This document shows positions 30,908-44,426 of a stretch of 60,586 bases of DNA, in pieces (position 1 is the stretch's first letter; each line of letters opens with the position of its first letter). A program made the position numbers and the translations under genes. This DNA is from Halioglobus sp. (GTDB lineage: Bacteria; Pseudomonadota; Gammaproteobacteria; Pseudomonadales; Halieaceae): assembly GCA_020443325.1 (NCBI GenBank), contig JAGRIK010000234.1, positions 1-60,586 on the forward strand, written 5' to 3'. Under the pieces are notes generated by a model. That model was not told the origin of the DNA, made no database searches, and saw only the letters and a program-made list of their open reading frames with translations.

Positions 30908-31019
30908 GGCGGTAAATCCAGTAGCACGGGCAGGGACCCGCCGTGAACCCCTCCATGGGGGCTTGAGCTCGACATCCATGTCTCGCACAGTCCCTGCCCG
31001 TGCTACTGGATTTACCGCC
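30908..31019. repeat. Cloverleaf-like palindrome A1
   Basis: Perfect 30-base arms (30908-30937 and 30990-31019, ending GGGCAGGGAC / GTCCCTGCCC) enclose a 52-base loop that folds into two further hairpins: CCCC-TCCATG-GGGG and GACA-TCCA-TGTC. The whole forms a three-way-junction shape. The loop is closely similar, in inverted orientation, to the loop of palindrome A2 next to it, but the outer stems are unrelated. Confidence 0.85.
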
Positions 31020-31144: not shown

Positions 31145-31239
31145 AACGTAGAGCCTGGGGCGGGACTGTGCGAGGCAGGACGCCGAGCTCAAGCCCCCAT
31201 GGAAGGGTTCACGGCGGGTCCCGCCCCAGGCTCTACGTT
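31145..31239. repeat. Cloverleaf-like palindrome A2
   Basis: Arms of 22 perfect bases (31145-31166 and 31218-31239, AACGTAGAGCCTGGGGCGGG-type) enclose a 51-base loop with small inner hairpins GGC-AGGAC-GCC and CCCC-CATGGA-AGGG. The loop is the inverse of the A1 loop with only a few changes. It may double as a transcription terminator region downstream of the crotonase gene and the acyl-CoA synthetase operon, which is not shown. Confidence 0.85.
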
Positions 31240-36171: not shown

Positions 36172-36446
36172 AGCCCTCCAAGGTAGCGGTACAGGATTGA
36201 ATCACCAGTATCGGTGAGGCACCGCAGACACTCAATGACACAAAGGATCACGTGAACATGACTTTTCAGATCAATCGGCTCTCAATGGCCGCTGAGGACA
36301 GTAAATGCGAGGGCTTTCCCGCCGGAGGGTTGCGTTACTTGTACCACCCGGCACAGAATACCGCTGCCCGCCTTCAAGATCGATGAAATTGGCTGATAAT
36401 GGAGGTCGGTTGCCACATACCTTACGAACTCACCAGGAGCACATCT
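36172..36446. other. Divergent spacer between the DUF35/thiolase operon and the dioxygenase gene
   Basis: This 275-base region must hold both promoters. The stretch GGATCACGTGAACATGACTT (36246-36265) contains a short palindrome (TCACGTGA) that could be an operator. I see no clear KstR-like or other known site, and no gene. Confidence 0.4.
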
Positions 36447-37349
36447 ATGTCAGTCTCAGCCGTTGGTTATTTGAGAATCGCGTCCACCGATACATCCGCC
36501 TGGATGGACTTCGGCACCGGCGTGCTGGGCCTGATGGACGCACAGCGCGCGGATGACGCCGGCGCGCGCTTCCTGCGCATGGACGACCACCCTTTCCGCT
36601 TCATGATCGAATCCGCCGATGCCGACAAACTGATCGCGACCGGCCTGGAGTTCCCCGACGAAGCCGCCTGGCGATCCACCATCGACGCCCTGGCAGGCGC
36701 GGGTCATACCGTGACGGCCGGATCACCCGAAGAGGCACAGCGCCGCTGCGTCACCGCGTTTTCCACGGTACAGGACCCGGCGGGCAACACCCTGGAACTC
36801 TACTGGGGCCGTAAGCTGGACTACGTACCGCTGGTCTCACCCACCGGTGTGAGCCGCTTCGTCACCACCTACCAGCAATCCGGTGATATGGGCTTCGGGC
36901 ACTGCGTATTGCCCGCGCCCGACATCGAGTCCTGCGTGGATTTCTACACCCAGCTTATCGGTACCGGCCTAACCGACACGTTGTACCCACCCGGCCTGGA
37001 CGGCCTGCAGATCAAATTCATGCACGCGAACAACCCGCGCCAGCACTCCATCGCCCTCTTCAGTGGCCCGCACCCGGCGGGAATCGTCCACATGATGGTC
37101 GAGGTGCAGACCCTGGACGAGGTAGGCCAGGCGATGAAGCGCGCAGAAAAGGCTGGCGTGCATTTCCTTGCCACACTGGGGCGTCACGTCAATGACAATA
37201 TGTGTTCCATCTACATACTGGCACCTGGCGGCATTGCGGTCGAGTATGGCTACGACGGTTTGCTCATTGACTGGGAGAATTATGTGCCTACGGTGAGTGT
37301 CGAGGGTGACCTTTGGGGGCATGAGTACAACTTTCCCGGCGTGAACTAG
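36447..37349 (+). CDS. Extradiol ring-cleavage dioxygenase (HsaC/BphC-like)
   Basis: The start is MSVSAVGYLRIASTD (300 residues); 16 upstream codons of the open frame are not protein-like. It has two vicinal-oxygen-chelate modules. Fe(II) ligands are His152 (MGFGHCVLPAPD), His215 (AGIVHMMVEV) and Glu266 (AVEYGYDG). A second-sphere His200 (RQHSIALF) and the GRHVND loop are conserved as well. It cleaves a catechol next to the hydroxyls. The overall similarity to HsaC, which opens the A ring of secosteroid catechols, suggests the same here, but a biphenyl-type catechol substrate is possible. Confidence 0.9.
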   Translation: MSVSAVGYLRIASTDTSAWMDFGTGVLGLMDAQRADDAGARFLRMDDHPFRFMIESADADKLIATGLEFPDEAAWRSTIDALAGAGHTVTAGSPEEAQRRCVTAFSTVQDPAGNTLELYWGRKLDYVPLVSPTGVSRFVTTYQQSGDMGFGHCVLPAPDIESCVDFYTQLIGTGLTDTLYPPGLDGLQIKFMHANNPRQHSIALFSGPHPAGIVHMMVEVQTLDEVGQAMKRAEKAGVHFLATLGRHVNDNMCSIYILAPGGIAVEYGYDGLLIDWENYVPTVSVEGDLWGHEYNFPGVN

Positions 37350-37454
37350 CAGCGTGTTGGAAAACCTTCAGCTGACATCTCGGCTTGTTTTCTCCTTGAA
37401 TAGCAACGAGATGGATTTTGTCTTAGCGCTGTCGGGGGGTTAGTCGGGGCCGAC

Positions 37455-37529
37455 GGGCTCGCACCCCAGTAGGCGTTTCAGTCGCTCCACGTGATTCGCT
37501 TGGTGAAACGCCTACTGGGGTACGAGCCC
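37455..37529. repeat. Hairpin H1 with conserved 23-base loop
   Basis: Arms 37455-37480 (GGGCTCGCACCCCAGTAGGC...) and 37504-37529 are 26 bases with one mismatch. The 23-base loop (37481-37503) starts GTCGCTCCACGTGATTC. It is exactly the reverse complement of the loop of hairpin H2. Confidence 0.85.
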
Positions 37530-37627
37530 TACATCCCAATGCTACGGCACGATGTGTGATGAACGTTAGATTGTGGAGTGTATGAATGGTACATTTTTTA
37601 GTGATCTCGTCGAATGGTTTGCACTGA

Positions 37628-37704
37628 GGTTGCGGATAGAAAATGTGTTTCTCACCAAGCGAATCACGTGGAGCGACTGAGAAACACATTTTCTATCCGC
37701 AACC
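37628..37704. repeat. Hairpin H2 with the inverted copy of the same loop
   Basis: Arms 37628-37654 and 37678-37704 are perfect over 27 bases (GGTTGCGGATAGAAAATGTG...). The 23-base loop (37655-37677, starting CCAAGCGAATCACGTGG) is the exact inverse of the H1 loop although the stems are unrelated. The stem sequence is found again, fused to H1 sequence, at 43201-43291. Confidence 0.85.
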
Positions 37705-37859
37705 GCCCTACAAAGCCACTTCCCAGAAGGGCGGAAATACCTCAGCTTTCATCCCGGTTAGTTTCCCCCCCGGTCTTGCACTCGCTAGAGACTTTTTCAA
37801 CACGCTGCCAGTGAGATTCTAAGGGCTAGTTAAAGAAGCTCCATGTAAACTTCGGGGTC

Positions 37860-38004
37860 GGCGGAAGTTTGAGTCTTATAGGGTTGGGACCCACTGCTAT
37901 AGCATTCGATTTACCGCCGTCTCGAGGTGCTGGTAAGAGCGATTCGGTACAGAATACCGATCTTCAGCGCAGAACGTATAGCCTCTACCGAATCCAGTGT
38001 ATCC
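37860..38004. repeat. Left copy of the island-flanking direct repeat
   Basis: Bases 37860-37925 match 43296-43361 at 62 of 66 positions. Bases 37965-38004 match 43395-43434 almost exactly (first 28 identical). The 39 bases in between differ. The second block encodes, on the minus strand, the last residues (DTL-SVEAIRSAL) of the phosphotransferase at 43392-44426, but here without a stop. So this is a copy of a gene end and its downstream region. Confidence 0.8.
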
Positions 38005-38116
38005 CAGGAGCAACTGCACGAGGAAACTGCAACCGCAGTGCACTGTGAAAGCGGGGAGATTGATGGCAGAATACGCGGTCAAAAACAGCGTCGAACAACA
38101 CACTACAGGCCCCATC

Positions 38117-39832
38117 ATGTCTACAAAAGTTGGAACAATTATTAGTCTTTTCCTGAGCAGCTCGCTGGCAACGGGCACCTCTCTCGTCTTCGCCCAATCG
38201 GGGAATACAAAATTCGGCCTGGGTGCACTCGAGGTGGTGACTTTTGGCGATTACAATTCAGCCTTTGGGGACCGAGCACTTTTTTTCAATAGAAATGGCG
38301 GAGGTAATACGGCTGTTGGGGCAAACTCGCTTTACGCCAACAACGAGGGTGAATTCAATACGGCCATCGGCATCGACTCCCTCCGCTTCAACGACGGTTC
38401 CTACAATACAGCCAGCGGTAAAAGTTCGCTTTATGCTAATACCACGGGTAATAGGAATACGGCCAATGGCACCGCTTCGCTTTATTCCAACACCACTGGC
38501 GAAGTCAATACGGCTACTGGAGCGTACTCGCTCTACTCCAACACTACTGGCGGCAGAAACACTGCTAACGGCTACAATTCACTCTATTTCAATACCAACG
38601 GGGAATACAACACGGCTAGCGGTGCATTAGCGCTCTATAACAACACCACCGGTGATCATAATACTGCAAACGGGGTCGAGTCCCTCCTGTTCAACACAGG
38701 CGGCAATTACAATACAGCCAATGGTAGTAACTCACTACGTTCGAACACTACCGGCGAAGGCAACACGGCCAGTGGCCTCTCCTCTCTCGGCTCCAACACC
38801 ACCGGAAACTACAATACGGCGGTGGGTTATGACTCGCTCAGGGGTAGCAGGACAGGCAGCGGAAACTCTGCCTATGGGGCTTTTTCCTTGAACAACAACA
38901 GCACTGGCCGCGACAACACGGCCAGCGGGATGGATGCTCTTCATTCCAACTCCAGCGGCGTTGAGAACACTGCGATGGGCAAAAGCGCGCTGGAAGAAAA
39001 TACGACAGGGAAACTGAATACTGCGATAGGCGCGTCATCAATGCTTGAAAACAAGTCCGGCAAATGGAATAACGCCGTGGGCGGGAAAACCCTGTACTCC
39101 CTCAGGAGCGGCAATGGAAACTCCGCACAGGGTTTTGCGGCACTGCATAATACGGCTACGGGCTCGAACAATGTAGCCATCGGCAATACTGCCGGTTATT
39201 CCAACGTGGCGGGCAACGGTAATGTTTTTATCGGGTGGAACGCGGGTTTTTCAGAAGGTGGCAGTAACAACCTCTATATTACCAACAATAAAACGACCCC
39301 CCTGATCTATGGTTATTTTAGCCCCGATCCCAGCGCCAACTTTCTCGGTATAGGAACCCGGCTCAGACCGGATGACGCTACGATTAATGTCTGGAACGGT
39401 GCACAGCTGACCAAGGGAGGTGTATGGATGAACGCTTCCTCACGCGAATTGAAGGACGATATCGAAGCGCTCAGCGTCGAGGATGCTACAGCGGCATTGG
39501 CGGCGTTATCTCCGGTTCGCTATGTCTACAGGAATTCACGCGATGAAGAGTATGTGGGGTTTATTGCGGAAGATGTACCTGCCCTTGTAGCTTCGAATGA
39601 TCGCAAATCGCTATCATCAATGGACATTGTGGCGGTATTGACCACCGTAACGAAAGATCAAAACGCCAGGATGACAGAGAAAGATGCTGAGATAGCCTCA
39701 TTACGCAAATCCCTCAAACAACAGGAAGCTGTGAATCAAGAACAGGAGGCGCGCATATTACAAATAGAAGCCGCATTGTCGGAAGCATTTCGAGATAATT
39801 CTGGCGAGATGCAACTCAGCGCGGCTCGATAA
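38117..39832 (+). CDS. Secreted beta-roll protein with C-terminal peptidase S74 domain, paralog 1
   Basis: The start is MSTKVGTIISLFLSSSLATG, a signal peptide cut before QSGNTKFG (571 residues). Residues about 60-330 are about 16 units of 17 residues with the pattern NTA-G-SLYxNTTGxx (51 bases each in DNA), which probably form a YadA/Hia-head-like trimeric beta roll. Residues about 440-510 are an S74 intramolecular-chaperone domain: SSRELKDDIEALS with the Ser/Lys dyad, and EEYVGFIAEDVP. A coiled coil (about 520-560) ends it. It lacks a YadA membrane anchor, so how it is attached or released is unclear. Stop codon is 7 bases from its convergent paralog. Confidence 0.82.
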   Translation: MSTKVGTIISLFLSSSLATGTSLVFAQSGNTKFGLGALEVVTFGDYNSAFGDRALFFNRNGGGNTAVGANSLYANNEGEFNTAIGIDSLRFNDGSYNTASGKSSLYANTTGNRNTANGTASLYSNTTGEVNTATGAYSLYSNTTGGRNTANGYNSLYFNTNGEYNTASGALALYNNTTGDHNTANGVESLLFNTGGNYNTANGSNSLRSNTTGEGNTASGLSSLGSNTTGNYNTAVGYDSLRGSRTGSGNSAYGAFSLNNNSTGRDNTASGMDALHSNSSGVENTAMGKSALEENTTGKLNTAIGASSMLENKSGKWNNAVGGKTLYSLRSGNGNSAQGFAALHNTATGSNNVAIGNTAGYSNVAGNGNVFIGWNAGFSEGGSNNLYITNNKTTPLIYGYFSPDPSANFLGIGTRLRPDDATINVWNGAQLTKGGVWMNASSRELKDDIEALSVEDATAALAALSPVRYVYRNSRDEEYVGFIAEDVPALVASNDRKSLSSMDIVAVLTTVTKDQNARMTEKDAEIASLRKSLKQQEAVNQEQEARILQIEAALSEAFRDNSGEMQLSAAR

Positions 39833-39839
39833 CCAGGTG

Positions 39840-41489
39840 TCAGTTCGTCGAGCTAACTTGCACTGCGGCTGACTGAGTGCGAAGTACTTCTGCGAGCGCC
39901 ATCTCCAGCTGCAATATTCGGTCCGCAGTAGCCTTCTCCGCATTCAACGCACGACGTTCTTGCTGCTGTATCGCAATTTTCTGCTCTGCGAGTGCATCGC
40001 GTAGTACAGTAATCTCGCTTTCTTTTTGTGTCATTTTGGCCCTCTGATCCTGAATCACCGTGGTCAGAACGGCCACGATATCCATTGGCGATAACGACTT
40101 GTGGTCATTGCTTGCAACAAGGTCAGGTACATCTTCCGCAATAAACCCCACATACTCTTCATCGCGTGAATTCCTGTAGACATAGCGAACCGGAGACAGC
40201 GCTTCCAATGCCGCTGTAGCATCCTCGACACTAAGCGCTTCGATATCGTCCTTCAGATCGCGCGAGGAAGCGTTTGTCCATACACCCCCTTTGGTCAGAT
40301 GTGCACCATTCCAGACCGCAATGGCGTCACCGCTGCCCACCATCCTGGTACCGATACCCAATTTGTTGTTCCCGGGAGCTGAAGAAAACTCACCGTAAAG
40401 CAGTGGAGTTGCCTGATTGTTTGTGATGTACAGCTTGTTGTCACCCGTTTCAGAAAACCCTGCGTTCCAACCCAGGAAGACGTTGCCACTGCCATACCGG
40501 TTGCTGTAACCGGCGGTATTGCCGATGGCTACATTATTGGAGCCGTGGGTGGTGTTGTAGAGTGCGGCAAAGCCCTGGGCAGAATTACCATTGCCGGAAT
40601 GAAGGTTGTATAGCGATTTGGCACCGACAGCGTTGTTCCATTTACCCTGGTAGTTTTCATACATTGACTTCGACCCCACTGCCGTATTGAGCTTGCCGCT
40701 GCTATTTTGAAACAATGCGGAGAAACCACTGGCGGTATTGTCTGCACCGGTACTGTTGGAGTAGAGAGTGCTATAGCCACTGGCTGTATTGAATCTACCG
40801 GTTGAGTTTCTGTGTAGTGCAAAAGCACCAGTGGCCGTGTTTTGAACACCACTTGTGTTACCGTAGAGCGAATCAACACCACTCGCCGTATTGTAGTTTC
40901 CGGTGGTGTTAAAAACGAGCGCCCGGTAACCACTGGCGGTGTTGTAACTGCCGGAAGTGTTCGAATTGAGCGATTTGGCGCCATTGGCGGTGTTGTAATC
41001 TCCGGTGAGGTTCTCATAGAGCGCTGAAAGACCGCTGGCCGTATTGCCCTTACCGGAAATATTTGAGTAGAGCGCTGAAACGCCGGTGGCGGTATTTTCT
41101 CGGCCATTGCCGTTGGCATAGAGCGCATAGGAACCTGTCGCCGTATTGCTCTCGCCAGCAGTATTGAAGCGGAGTGCGAATGCACCACTAGCAGTATTGA
41201 ATCTACCGTGGGTGTTGCCAGAGAGCGAATAACTGCCACTGGCGGTGTTGTGTGTACCTACGTCGTTGCCATGTAAAGAGAAAGCGCCATTGCCTGTGTT
41301 GTGCTCGCCGGTGGTATTGGAAAAGAGCGCCTCGTAACCAAATGCAGAATTCATTTCTCCGGTGGTTACTTGTCCGAGTGCGTCAGTACCATATTGTGTA
41401 TTCCCGACTTGTGCCGACACCTGACCAGAGACTAACGCTGGCGCAATGGCCAACACCAGAAGATATCCTGTTTTCGCCTTTATCCTCAT
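39840..41489 (-). CDS. Secreted beta-roll protein with C-terminal peptidase S74 domain, paralog 2
   Basis: The start is MRIKAKTGYLLVLAIAPALV, with a signal peptide cut near VSA-QVGNTQYG (549 residues). The architecture is the same as the convergent neighbour: 17-residue NTA-G repeats (GDYNTANGAKSLNSNTSG and similar), the transition NVFLGWNAGFSETG, an S74 domain (SSRDLKDDIEALSVEDATAAL) and a coiled coil. The S74 domains of the two paralogs are nearly identical while the repeats and tails differ. Each gene appears to have its own promoter: the start is 286 bases from the next gene. Confidence 0.82.
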   Translation of the reverse strand: MRIKAKTGYLLVLAIAPALVSGQVSAQVGNTQYGTDALGQVTTGEMNSAFGYEALFSNTTGEHNTGNGAFSLHGNDVGTHNTASGSYSLSGNTHGRFNTASGAFALRFNTAGESNTATGSYALYANGNGRENTATGVSALYSNISGKGNTASGLSALYENLTGDYNTANGAKSLNSNTSGSYNTASGYRALVFNTTGNYNTASGVDSLYGNTSGVQNTATGAFALHRNSTGRFNTASGYSTLYSNSTGADNTASGFSALFQNSSGKLNTAVGSKSMYENYQGKWNNAVGAKSLYNLHSGNGNSAQGFAALYNTTHGSNNVAIGNTAGYSNRYGSGNVFLGWNAGFSETGDNKLYITNNQATPLLYGEFSSAPGNNKLGIGTRMVGSGDAIAVWNGAHLTKGGVWTNASSRDLKDDIEALSVEDATAALEALSPVRYVYRNSRDEEYVGFIAEDVPDLVASNDHKSLSPMDIVAVLTTVIQDQRAKMTQKESEITVLRDALAEQKIAIQQQERRALNAEKATADRILQLEMALAEVLRTQSAAVQVSSTN

Positions 41490-41775
41490 AATCAACACCC
41501 GAATGTTAGTTGTTCCAAACTGCATTGCGCTTCAATTCGAGCAGGAGTATAGGGCATATTCCAGATAATTGTGATTGAGATTTCTCATTGTTCTCGCCTG
41601 AAATCGCCGCCGAAAAAGCCATTCGGCCCCAGGATAGAGCACGTTGTCGTCACCACCGAGGTCTGAATGTGAGCAGTAAGTGGGGGACGGAGAAAATTCT
41701 ATTTAGCCAATCACCTGATTCGAGTGTAAAGTTTCTTCTCCATCCCATTTCACATTCTTCGGTATACTCCGCCTT
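41490..41775. other. Divergent spacer upstream of paralog 2 and the TPR gene
   Basis: This 286-base spacer must hold the promoters of both divergent genes. It is AT-richer than the flanks (for example ATTGTGATTGAGATTTCTC). I recognise no operator. One open frame at 41588-41830 is an overlap shadow. Confidence 0.4.
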
Positions 41776-43032
41776 ATGGAAGAACTCGAAGAACGTAAAT
41801 CCAGAGCCAGACGTGTTGTCAGCGCGATGATCTGGGCGGTTCTCATCGGTTACTTTGCCTACAGTAACGGGTATCTGGAAAAATTTGCATTTGACGATGG
41901 GAAACGTGTCGCTGCGGATGTCCTGATTAGGGCTGTCGATGCCTTTGGGCTTTCGTCGAGCACACTGCGGGTGCAAGTTGAAGCGGGGAAGCTGTACTTT
42001 TTCGCGGGAGAGAACGAAACCGCGGTTACCGTACTTGAGGCTACGTTACCCCTGATTGCTGAGTTCGACAATGTAGAACAGCGCCATTACGCGAGTGTGT
42101 ACTTTGTGCTTGGCGAAATTACTGCTCAATCAGCACAGTTCAAGCGCTCCGTGGATTTTCTTCTTCAAGGCCTCAGATTGGAGCCTCAGAATCTCCATTA
42201 TCAACTCTATTTGGGTGATGTTTATACCCGAGCAGGTAAGCATCGTCTGGCAACAGAACACTATACTGAGCTACTGGAAGTTCCCAATCTGAAACCTGAA
42301 CAGCGGGCAATCCTCAAAATAGGTATCGCCGAAGGTGGCGGGGAAGATCCCTCCGCTGTCGAAGCAGGAAGAAAACTGGCGGAGATGCCCTATCTCGATT
42401 ATCCGCTGTTAACGCTGGTTCCGATCAACAATTTGCCGGAGACAGTGGCGTTACAAGACTTGTGTCTTGTTCTCGAATCTGTATTTCAAATGGGTTGCGT
42501 TATAGAGCGCCCATTGAAGTCGAGTGCGAAGCCATCCAGTGGACGAAATCAAATAGATGCTGTCGATGTGATTGATGAACTGGAAACCACCTATCCGCGT
42601 GAAGGATTCGCCCCCATCGTTGGTATTATGGCTGACGACATTTACTCTGGCACTGCAAGGTTTGTATTTTCAACTCAAGCTCTGGACACCGGTTATGGCG
42701 TAGTTTCCATATCTCGATTTTTTCGCGCCGGCCTTAATGTGTACGCGAATGAGAAGGTTTATAATCGGCGACTGGCGATACAGTTGATCTCTGTCGTCGG
42801 TCAGCTCCTGGGATTTCCGAGACCTGCAAAACCTCACTGTCCGCTGGCGTATCCGGACAGTATGCAAGAGTTCCTGTTGAAGCAGGCCACCCTTTGCCCC
42901 TCTACGCGCAGGTCACTCAAGGCGTTACTAACGCAAATCGCCGCGCAAGATGGCGTGCAGTTCTCCAGAATTTCAAAGTCCAAGATTGATGAAATGCTTC
43001 GGATCAAAGCCAAATACGGGTTGGAAGGGTAG
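41776..43032 (+). CDS. Membrane-anchored TPR protein fused to a zinc-less archaemetzincin-like domain
   Basis: The 418-residue protein has a charged N-terminus, one likely membrane helix at about 14-30 (VVSAMIWAVLIGYFAYS), and TPR-like helices at about 60-175 (RHYASVYFVLGEITAQSAQFKRSVD and NLHYQLYLGDVYTRAGKHRLATEHY). Residues about 265-380 resemble archaemetzincin: VGIMADDIY, ARFVFSTQALDTGYGVVSISR, then ISVVGQLLGF at 338-347 and HC-x..-LCPS at 354-375. In true enzymes the zinc motif is HExxHxxGxxH; here those positions read S, Q and R, so it should be catalytically dead. I infer a pseudoprotease. Lower GC than its neighbours. Confidence 0.6.
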   Translation: MEELEERKSRARRVVSAMIWAVLIGYFAYSNGYLEKFAFDDGKRVAADVLIRAVDAFGLSSSTLRVQVEAGKLYFFAGENETAVTVLEATLPLIAEFDNVEQRHYASVYFVLGEITAQSAQFKRSVDFLLQGLRLEPQNLHYQLYLGDVYTRAGKHRLATEHYTELLEVPNLKPEQRAILKIGIAEGGGEDPSAVEAGRKLAEMPYLDYPLLTLVPINNLPETVALQDLCLVLESVFQMGCVIERPLKSSAKPSSGRNQIDAVDVIDELETTYPREGFAPIVGIMADDIYSGTARFVFSTQALDTGYGVVSISRFFRAGLNVYANEKVYNRRLAIQLISVVGQLLGFPRPAKPHCPLAYPDSMQEFLLKQATLCPSTRRSLKALLTQIAAQDGVQFSRISKSKIDEMLRIKAKYGLEG

Positions 43033-43200
43033 GCAGGGATTGGTATCACGACACATTACTTGGCGCCCAGTTTGTTGGGCATACCATGTCACCCCAACTG
43101 CAAACTACGGATATCATGGTCGCTGACCGATCGTGGTTGACCGAGCACCTTAGCCCCCATGGCAAGTCGGGCCAGAGGAACGATACTTTTTTGCTGGGCC
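43033..43200. other. 3' region of the TPR gene, no gene seen
   Basis: A short hairpin GCCCA-GTTTGT-TGGGC at 43065-43080 follows the gene end and could be a weak terminator. The rest has no recognised feature. Confidence 0.4.
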
Positions 43201-43291
43201 GTCGGGGGTTAGTCGTGGTCGACGGGCTCGCACCCCGGGAGCGACTGAGAAACACATTTCTATCCGCAACCGCCCTACAAAGCCACTTCCC
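43201..43291. repeat. Fused remnant of the MITE-like element
   Basis: 43201-43236 matches 37431-37467 (left part up to the H1 left arm, GACGGGCTCGCACCCC) and 43237-43291 matches 37670-37725 (right part of H2). The 202 bases between those points in the left copy are missing here. So this is a deleted copy of the same element, in the same orientation. Confidence 0.75.
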
Positions 43292-43295
43292 ACGA

Positions 43296-43434
43296 GGCGG
43301 AAGTTTGAGTCCCATAGCGTTGGGACCCACTGCTATAGCATTCGATTTACCGCCGTATCGATGCACAAGTACGCAACGAAACACTCCCGACCTACAGCGC
43401 AGAACGTATAGCCTCTACCGAACCCAACGTATCC
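43296..43434. repeat. Right copy of the island-flanking direct repeat
   Basis: Matches 37860-38004 as described there. The right copy contains the intact 3' end and stop (CTA, 43392-43394) of the phosphotransferase gene, so it is likely the original site and the left copy the duplicate. Confidence 0.8.
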
Positions 43435-44426
43435 AGCGCAGCATGTAGCCGCTCCATTGACGCTAGCAAATAGTTGACCGGCTGCCACGCATCACCCATG
43501 GCGAGGGTCACTGCAGCGCCTACCCAGACATAGGCCGCATGCCACTGGTATTGCTGCCAAAGCTCAGTCTCAGTTGGCGCCGTCACCCCGAGTGAAAGAA
43601 GTTGCTCGCGGTAATACCGCAACATGTTGCGGCCACTATCCCGCTGGTCCTGCGGGGTCAGGTTACCAGCGAGAAAATATCCCACATCGCGCATCGCCGG
43701 GCCTCTCGCTACCATCGCCCAATCGAGGAAGCCGGGCTGGCCTGCGTCATAGAACAGGTTGCCATCGTGGACATCGCCGTGGATCAGGGTGGGCTCTCCG
43801 CGCAACCACAGCTGATGGATGGCATCGGTGTGCGCCAGGTATAACTCGCACATGTCCCTGAAGACAGCGGGCATGTTGTCGGCGTGCCTTTGCAGTGCCC
43901 GGGCGATCAGCTGCGCGCCGATCTCATGCTGCACCGGCGGCTGCACCCAGCTGAGATTGGAGGCAAAGCGCGGTGAGTTCCAATAGGCGGCGTGCAGGCG
44001 GGCGAAAGCCGCCAGTATCTGGCGGATATAGTCTAGCGAGTAGCGCTTGCTGGCGTTCTTGAAGGTGCAACCGCTGTCCACCAGGTTCTCGAGCAGCATG
44101 ATGTAGGCTTCACCGGCCTCATCGCTGGCGGCAAAGTAGCAGCGCGGTACCCGCACGGGGAGTTCGGCCGCCAGGCTGCCGTAGAATAACGCCTCGCGCC
44201 GCCCCATCCCGCTGGAGGTGACAAACTGTCGCTGGCGTTCATCTGTCGGCGGCAGTTTCACGAAGAGCCTGGCGGGCAGGTCTGCCGCTTCACCGTAGCC
44301 CAGTTCGAGCAGTGCGCGGCCCGTGGTACCCGCGTGGGCATCGACAACCGTGAATTTCGTGACAGGTGTCTGCAACGCTTCGGACAGCCAGTCACGGGAC
44401 AGGCTGTTTAAATCGGCGGGGATCAT
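43392..44426 (-). CDS. Phosphotransferase family protein (APH/ecdysteroid-kinase-like)
   Basis: The start is MIPADLNSLSRDWL (344 residues); the open frame extends upstream without protein-like content. Kinase-like residues are the nucleotide-binding lysine region RLFVKLPP, the catalytic loop LIHGDVHDGNLFYD and the metal-binding FLDWAMVARGPAMRDV. It phosphorylates a hydroxyl on an unknown small molecule; such proteins are abundant in steroid-degrading actinobacteria and proteobacteria. Its 3' end is duplicated at 37965-38004. It is 17 bases downstream of the amino-acid binding protein gene, on the same strand. Confidence 0.85.
   Translation of the reverse strand: MIPADLNSLSRDWLSEALQTPVTKFTVVDAHAGTTGRALLELGYGEAADLPARLFVKLPPTDERQRQFVTSSGMGRREALFYGSLAAELPVRVPRCYFAASDEAGEAYIMLLENLVDSGCTFKNASKRYSLDYIRQILAAFARLHAAYWNSPRFASNLSWVQPPVQHEIGAQLIARALQRHADNMPAVFRDMCELYLAHTDAIHQLWLRGEPTLIHGDVHDGNLFYDAGQPGFLDWAMVARGPAMRDVGYFLAGNLTPQDQRDSGRNMLRYYREQLLSLGVTAPTETELWQQYQWHAAYVWVGAAVTLAMGDAWQPVNYLLASMERLHAALDTLGSVEAIRSAL

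Follow-up and report, generated by a model that had tools for sequence, protein, structure and literature searches.

Islands that are mobilized by tyrosine integrases insert at the 3′ ends of genes, where one of the two repeat copies restores the gene. In homology-facilitated illegitimate recombination, one end is joined by homology and the other is not, and a duplicated segment can be left behind. The H47 genomic island of E. coli is bounded by two imperfect repeats (148 and 144 bp) with exact runs of 13, 11, 20, and 17 bp. Mutants of each of the 16 K-12 site-specific recombinases still showed its excision, as did a recT recA double mutant, with a weak PCR band (PMC5426353). H47 is described as excising at a low level independently of RecA and of any dedicated recombinase (PMC5426353). 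As for surface fibres, the mosaic adhesive trimeric (MAT) fibres of Bdellovibrio are S74 proteins of about 1,000 amino acid residues with a β-rich domain of about 130 residues after the signal peptide and the S74 motif SDxxxK (PMC10769870).

Here, we analyzed a 60,586-nucleotide stretch (the window), which is contig C166 of a draft Halioglobus sp. genome (365 contigs, approximately 90% complete). An earlier note, made from the letters alone, had proposed an island integrated at a gene end between direct repeats. The features discussed below are listed in Table 1.

Insertion site and its counterparts in related genomes

The insert of about 5 kb carries two S74 fibre-like genes and one TPR-protein gene and lies between the genes for an extradiol dioxygenase/glyoxalase-fold protein and a kinase-like protein, the stops of which are 6,042 bp apart in the window. 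The former protein also matched the NCBIfam HsaC/BphC models, with scores below their cut-offs. The GC content was 0.509 for positions 38005–43186 and 0.597 for approximately 10.7 kb of flanking sequence, in agreement with the lower GC content ascribed to the island in the earlier note.

Table 1. Features of the insertion locus (positions in the window)
Feature	Position	Strand	Basis or remark
Left host gene, extradiol dioxygenase/glyoxalase-fold protein	36399..37349	+	Pfam Glyoxalase and BphC_D1 over cut-off; synteny
Full-length MITE-like element	~37350..37807	+	Terminal inverted repeats (CAGCGTGTTG../..CAACACGCTG), two internal hairpins
Left el2 copy, dispersed palindromic element	37850..37928	+	Core deleted; 37860–37925 is repeat block 1 of the earlier note
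Left, decayed copy of kinase-like gene 3′ end	37957..38004	-	Stop codon gone; sequence comparison
S74 fibre-like protein A	38117..39832	+	PF13884 32.1 bits, cut-off 22; C-terminal Peptidase_S74 domain
S74 fibre-like protein B, paralogue of A	39840..41525	-	PF13884 31.7 bits, cut-off 22
TPR protein with C-terminal archaemetzincin-like domain	41776..43032	+	No HExxH; hydrophobic N-terminal segment (by eye)
MITE fragment, truncated and internally deleted	~43187..43297	+	Joined to el2 at common GGCGGAA
Right el2 copy	43296..43361	+	Internal deletion identical to that of the left copy; sequence comparison
Right, intact copy of kinase-like gene end	43387..43434	-	Includes stop codon; sequence comparison
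Right host gene, kinase-like protein (EcKL/APH superfamily)	43392..44426	-	Profile match; orthologues in 15 same-genus genomes

Among the 17 other same-genus genomes searched, 15 had an orthologue of the kinase-like gene, with 59–84% identity. In six of these 15 genomes (G001, G016, G008, G009, G007, and G003), its immediate convergent neighbour was the glyoxalase/extradiol dioxygenase gene; the stop-to-stop gap was 0 to approximately 120 bp, and the stops overlapped in G016. Inspection by eye revealed no el2, MITE, or cargo in the sequences between the two genes in these six relatives. For eight of the remaining nine, the glyoxalase gene lay outside the stretch compared next to the kinase-like gene, which spanned about 1.5 kb (G005, 0.3 kb); in G014, the two genes were about 1 kb apart. 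These nine relatives are uninformative about an empty site because the glyoxalase gene does not adjoin within the compared stretch. The earlier note had called for this comparison and had held that a relative with the same order and no repeats would speak against its reading. The comparison returned an empty site in 6 of 15, and no such relative occurred among the genomes searched, since cargo was found at the site in 0 of the 15 same-genus genomes, all of other species, within the stretch of up to about 1.5 kb beside the kinase-like gene. The six empty sites indicate that this lineage gained the segment by insertion or, with less likelihood, that the six relatives lost it. An insertion of about 5 kb between two neighbouring genes is a real and fairly ordinary type of genome change.

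Direct repeats and the mode of insertion

A whole-genome search aligned 37860–38004 with 43296–43434 as one gapped block with 82% identity (E 6.7e-33). The two copies are 145 and 139 nt long, share a longest exact run of 38 nt, and comprise the sub-blocks D3 (66 nt, 94%) and D4 (48 nt, 90%), between which lies a spacer that is poorly conserved between the copies. The repeat core pattern, allowing up to three mismatches, occurred twice in the window and 0.00 times on average in 100 shuffles. Each copy carries the el2 element and the last ~43–48 nt of the kinase-like gene. D3 and D4 are the two blocks that the earlier note had described on both flanks, gene end included, and its observation that the gene and its stop are intact only on the right was reproduced: the kinase-like frame ends with TAG in the right copy and has lost its stop in the left copy. 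An assembly artefact at the repeats is extremely unlikely. At least seven draft contigs (C112, C53, C181, C146, C169, C33, and C102) do start within a MITE match, but the repeat copies differ at many sites, and the left junction (glyoxalase gene, el2, and gene tail in the window) has the same order as in relatives.

The left and right gene tails agreed with each other at 39 of 43 sites, and each agreed with those of G001, G016, and G008 at 32–35 of 43, the 43 sites being few for such a comparison. The two tails have two derived sites in common. At the four sites where they differ, the left copy was derived at three, including the stop loss, and the right copy at one, with the polarity judged from G001, G016, and G008; the rows of G009 and G004 were left out of this judgement, and those of G010 and G006, being out of register, were not used. 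Because the tails match each other better than they match those of the three relatives, the duplication most likely occurred after the split from G001, G016, and G008. The divergence of the repeat copies indicates that the insertion is not recent and that the duplication is old enough for the left tail to have decayed. A local tandem duplication from el2 to the gene tail might have come first, with the cargo entering between the copies later in an unrelated event. The derivation of both tails from this lineage is in line with such a duplication, and the dispersed repeats of the region could seed slippage; nevertheless, this course needs two events at one place, and no intermediate was seen in the 12 of the 15 relatives for which the sequence beside the gene was viewed, so we consider it unlikely.

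When 37812–38060 was searched against its own genome, the two window copies and seven weaker matches were obtained, the latter all inside the first block and corresponding to copies of the palindromic element of approximately 128 nt. Among the nine matches, only the alignments of the two window copies run across the deleted core and continue as far as the gene tail. A full el2 copy used as the query gave 55 matches in its own genome (40 of the 55 candidates were scored), which include both strands of the same palindromes. Because the deletion of the central core is common to both window copies, they would most simply derive from one another and not from separate insertions. Elsewhere in the window, 30933–30994 (+) and 31157–31227 (-) form two more hairpins in opposite orientation that share the core conserved among el2 copies but have long palindromic stems that are unrelated. 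A search of the window with Rfam gave 0 matches at gathering scores.

The earlier note had suggested looking for a phage-like integrase elsewhere. The profile search for the tyrosine recombinase family PF00589 gave no match on C166 and nine matches elsewhere in the genome. Neither a mobility domain nor a recombinase was detected in the three cargo proteins with Pfam, NCBIfam, and PHROGs. Site-specific integration at the 3′ end of the kinase-like gene by a recombinase that acted in trans or has since been lost, with the right copy representing the restored end that came from attP and the left copy the end that was displaced, would be in keeping with the gene-end target, the restoration of the gene by one copy only, and the nine matches elsewhere. 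It is nonetheless improbable in view of the contig lacking a PF00589 match and of the long, composite repeats (dispersed palindrome, variable spacer, and gene tail), which are only 82% identical. The proposal of integration at a gene end was thus upheld with regard to insertion, by the 6 of 15 empty sites and the duplicated gene end, and not with regard to its site-specific mode. Homologous or illegitimate recombination appears to fit better than site-specific integration. Since the exact runs reach 38 nt, a decayed att site may lie within the repeats.

MITE-like elements and conserved hairpins

The MITE family is represented in its own genome by at least 37 long matches with E of at most 2e-75 (36 of 114 candidates were scored), and weaker relatives were found in 2 of the 17 other same-genus genomes (G016 and G001). 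The right end of the MITE, used as the query in a search for an autonomous relative, gave 40 matches. As the earlier note had stated, MITE-like copies lie ahead of both repeats, a full one on the left and a truncated, internally deleted one on the right; the right piece lacks intact terminal inverted repeats, both termini being missing. Carriage of the cargo between two MITE copies as a composite would be consistent with MITE pieces in the same orientation at both outer sides, but the right piece lacks its termini, and both el2 and the gene tail are situated inward of the left MITE, so that their duplication is left unexplained. This composite movement is therefore quite improbable.

The right MITE fragment was compared with 28 subjects, namely 27 loci, some of which are the same place, and the left MITE. 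For its right part, the closest was the copy at C342, with 98.4% identity over 63 nt, and the identity with the left MITE was 98.2% over 56 nt (rows 19–20 of 47); the fragment also aligned over 72 nt with copies having a loop insertion absent from the left MITE. For its left part, the best row showed 100% identity over 34 nt and the left MITE 93.9% over 33 nt (rows 12 and 15 of 24). Derivation of the fragment from the left MITE was judged unlikely, as other copies are closer, although the difference is small. Gene conversion among MITE copies could possibly blur the relationships of the fragment. The comparison suggests a duplicated unit composed of el2 and the gene tail, to which the MITE pieces do not belong. 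However, the MITE may be part of this unit after all, because the right piece is 98.2% identical to the left one over those 56 nt.

The MITE hairpins at 37455–37529 and 37618–37714 have nearly invariant loops in opposite orientations, and their stems vary and covary. In 23 aligned copies (17 from its own genome, 4 from G016, and 2 from G001; 23 of 29 loci passed the filter), 20 of 56 predicted pairs showed at least one two-sided compensatory change, which do not amount to 20 independent events because related copies may inherit one change. The two loops of one element were exact complements in only 5 of 29 distinct elements, and a 15-nt loop insertion was present or absent independently; strict loop-loop pairing is therefore not kept. 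A literature search on the MITE and its hairpins gave no match, which does not imply that nothing is in print. The hairpin repeat families close by are more unusual than the island itself. It is conceivable, albeit with a very low probability, that dispersed hairpins whose loops are conserved, namely el2 and the twin hairpins of the MITE, serve throughout the genome as joining points for the capture of recombinase-free gene segments at gene ends, and the island would then be one product of such capture.

Cargo genes and comparison with known systems

The S74 fibre-like proteins A and B share 59% amino acid identity and are encoded convergently. Both contain 17-residue repeats and, by eye, signal-peptide-like starts, and the true start of protein B may be the second Met, where the signal-peptide-like stretch begins. 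Both matched PHROG virion structural and tail fibre families. At the SDxxxK position they read SSRELK and SSRDLK, S and K being retained and D replaced by S. The cargo most likely yields secreted, self-trimming trimeric fibres, judging from the domains. In the paralogous pair, two 359-nt arms with 80% complementarity are separated by 210 nt, a layout that could permit inversion or gene conversion. Pieces of a further S74 gene were located at two contig ends of the same genome (the end of C315 and the start of C32) and may represent a single gene. Among the 36 other relatives, protein B had one weak partial match only (G003, E 8.5e-4). S74-type relatives were distributed in diverse cellular genomes of many phyla (54 loci, best-segment identity 29–60%), in phages as repeat proteins (104 records, every one below 60% identity), and at 45 viral loci (identity 26–59%). 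Because they occur in phages and cellular genomes alike, no phage origin was assigned to the cargo. A sequence search of solved structures with protein B gave 0 matches at E 0.001.

The C-terminal domain of the TPR protein scored 52.9 bits against the archaemetzincin model, below the NCBIfam cut-off of 145. Archaemetzincin carries an HExxH zinc motif (PMC3427221); the corresponding region, located by eye, has the sequence SVVGQLLGF in the window protein and in its G008 homologue alike. The TPR protein with this degenerate domain is possibly a pseudoprotease. A full-length homologue was found in 1 of the 36 other relatives (G008, 61% identical, at a different locus), and weak partial matches were found in G016, G007, G034, and G033 of the same 36 (E 2.4e-13 to 5.6e-4). 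The TPR gene had no match in plasmids, and among 293 genomes of the order, its own genome alone matched; G008 was presumably outside this draw because its known homologue was absent from the matches. A search of solved structures returned 27 sequences, nearly all of them TPR proteins (designed or natural) or fusions; the matches spanned residues 68–227 at most, and none covered the C-terminal domain. The AlphaFold model, based on two sequences, was too poor to be used, with a mean pLDDT of 41.6.

Taken together, the locus is probably best explained by an old insertion through homologous or illegitimate recombination, in which a target of about 145 bp was duplicated, with no linked tyrosine recombinase. 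In the ancestor of the species, the extradiol dioxygenase and kinase-like genes would have been convergent neighbours, as in the relatives, and an el2 palindrome would have lain between them, because the same core deletion is found in both window copies. The three-gene segment (two S74 genes and the TPR/archaemetzincin-like gene) would have been inserted by homologous or microhomology-driven illegitimate recombination, through either a single crossover with incoming DNA bearing an el2/gene-end segment or template switching. The target of about 145 bp, comprising el2, the spacer, and the last ~43–48 nt of the kinase-like gene, would thereby have been placed at both sides, and the right tail would have been kept by coding selection while the left one decayed. 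The MITE pieces were most likely separate insertions, the right one joining el2 through the short homology GGCGGAA. Any excision of the island would be infrequent and would proceed by host-driven recombination across the imperfect repeats.

In favour of this old insertion, we counted the empty sites, the order at the left junction, the agreement of the tails, the lack of a PF00589 match on C166 and of a mobility domain in the cargo, the sparse homologues of the TPR protein and protein B in the relatives, and the lower GC content. Counted against it were the poor conservation of the spacer, which blurs the exact exchange points, the failure to find a donor or circle, the poorly explained MITE pieces of the same orientation at both outer sides, the 365-contig draft of approximately 90% completeness, and the nine relatives without an empty site. 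The analysis documents a small gene-end island with an empty site in relatives and no linked tyrosine recombinase, the flanking repeat of which is partly a dispersed palindrome.

The island resembles tyrosine-integrase islands in its gene-end position and in the restoration of the gene by one repeat copy. It differs from them in having no linked PF00589 integrase and in its long, diverged, composite repeats, and its target is a protein-coding gene. Its likeness to the products of homology-facilitated illegitimate recombination is inferred only, no donor having been found. Like the MAT fibres, the window proteins are bacterial, end in an S74 self-cleaving chaperone domain, and are likely exported, whereas they are shorter (561–571 residues as searched) and read S for the D of SDxxxK.

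H47 of E. coli is the nearest precedent (PMC5426353). Both islands are small, have imperfect direct repeats (145/139 nt here) with short exact runs, and carry no site-specific recombinase of their own. Exact runs extend to 38 nt in the present island and to 20 bp in H47. Unlike H47, the present island has one repeat block that is a member of a family of dispersed palindromes and another that is the end of a gene. The cargo of H47 also differs from that of the present island. Excision has been demonstrated for H47; by analogy, low-level excision of the present island is possible. If such excision could be demonstrated, the island would be a further H47-like case and would support recombinase-free mobility of surface-fibre genes.
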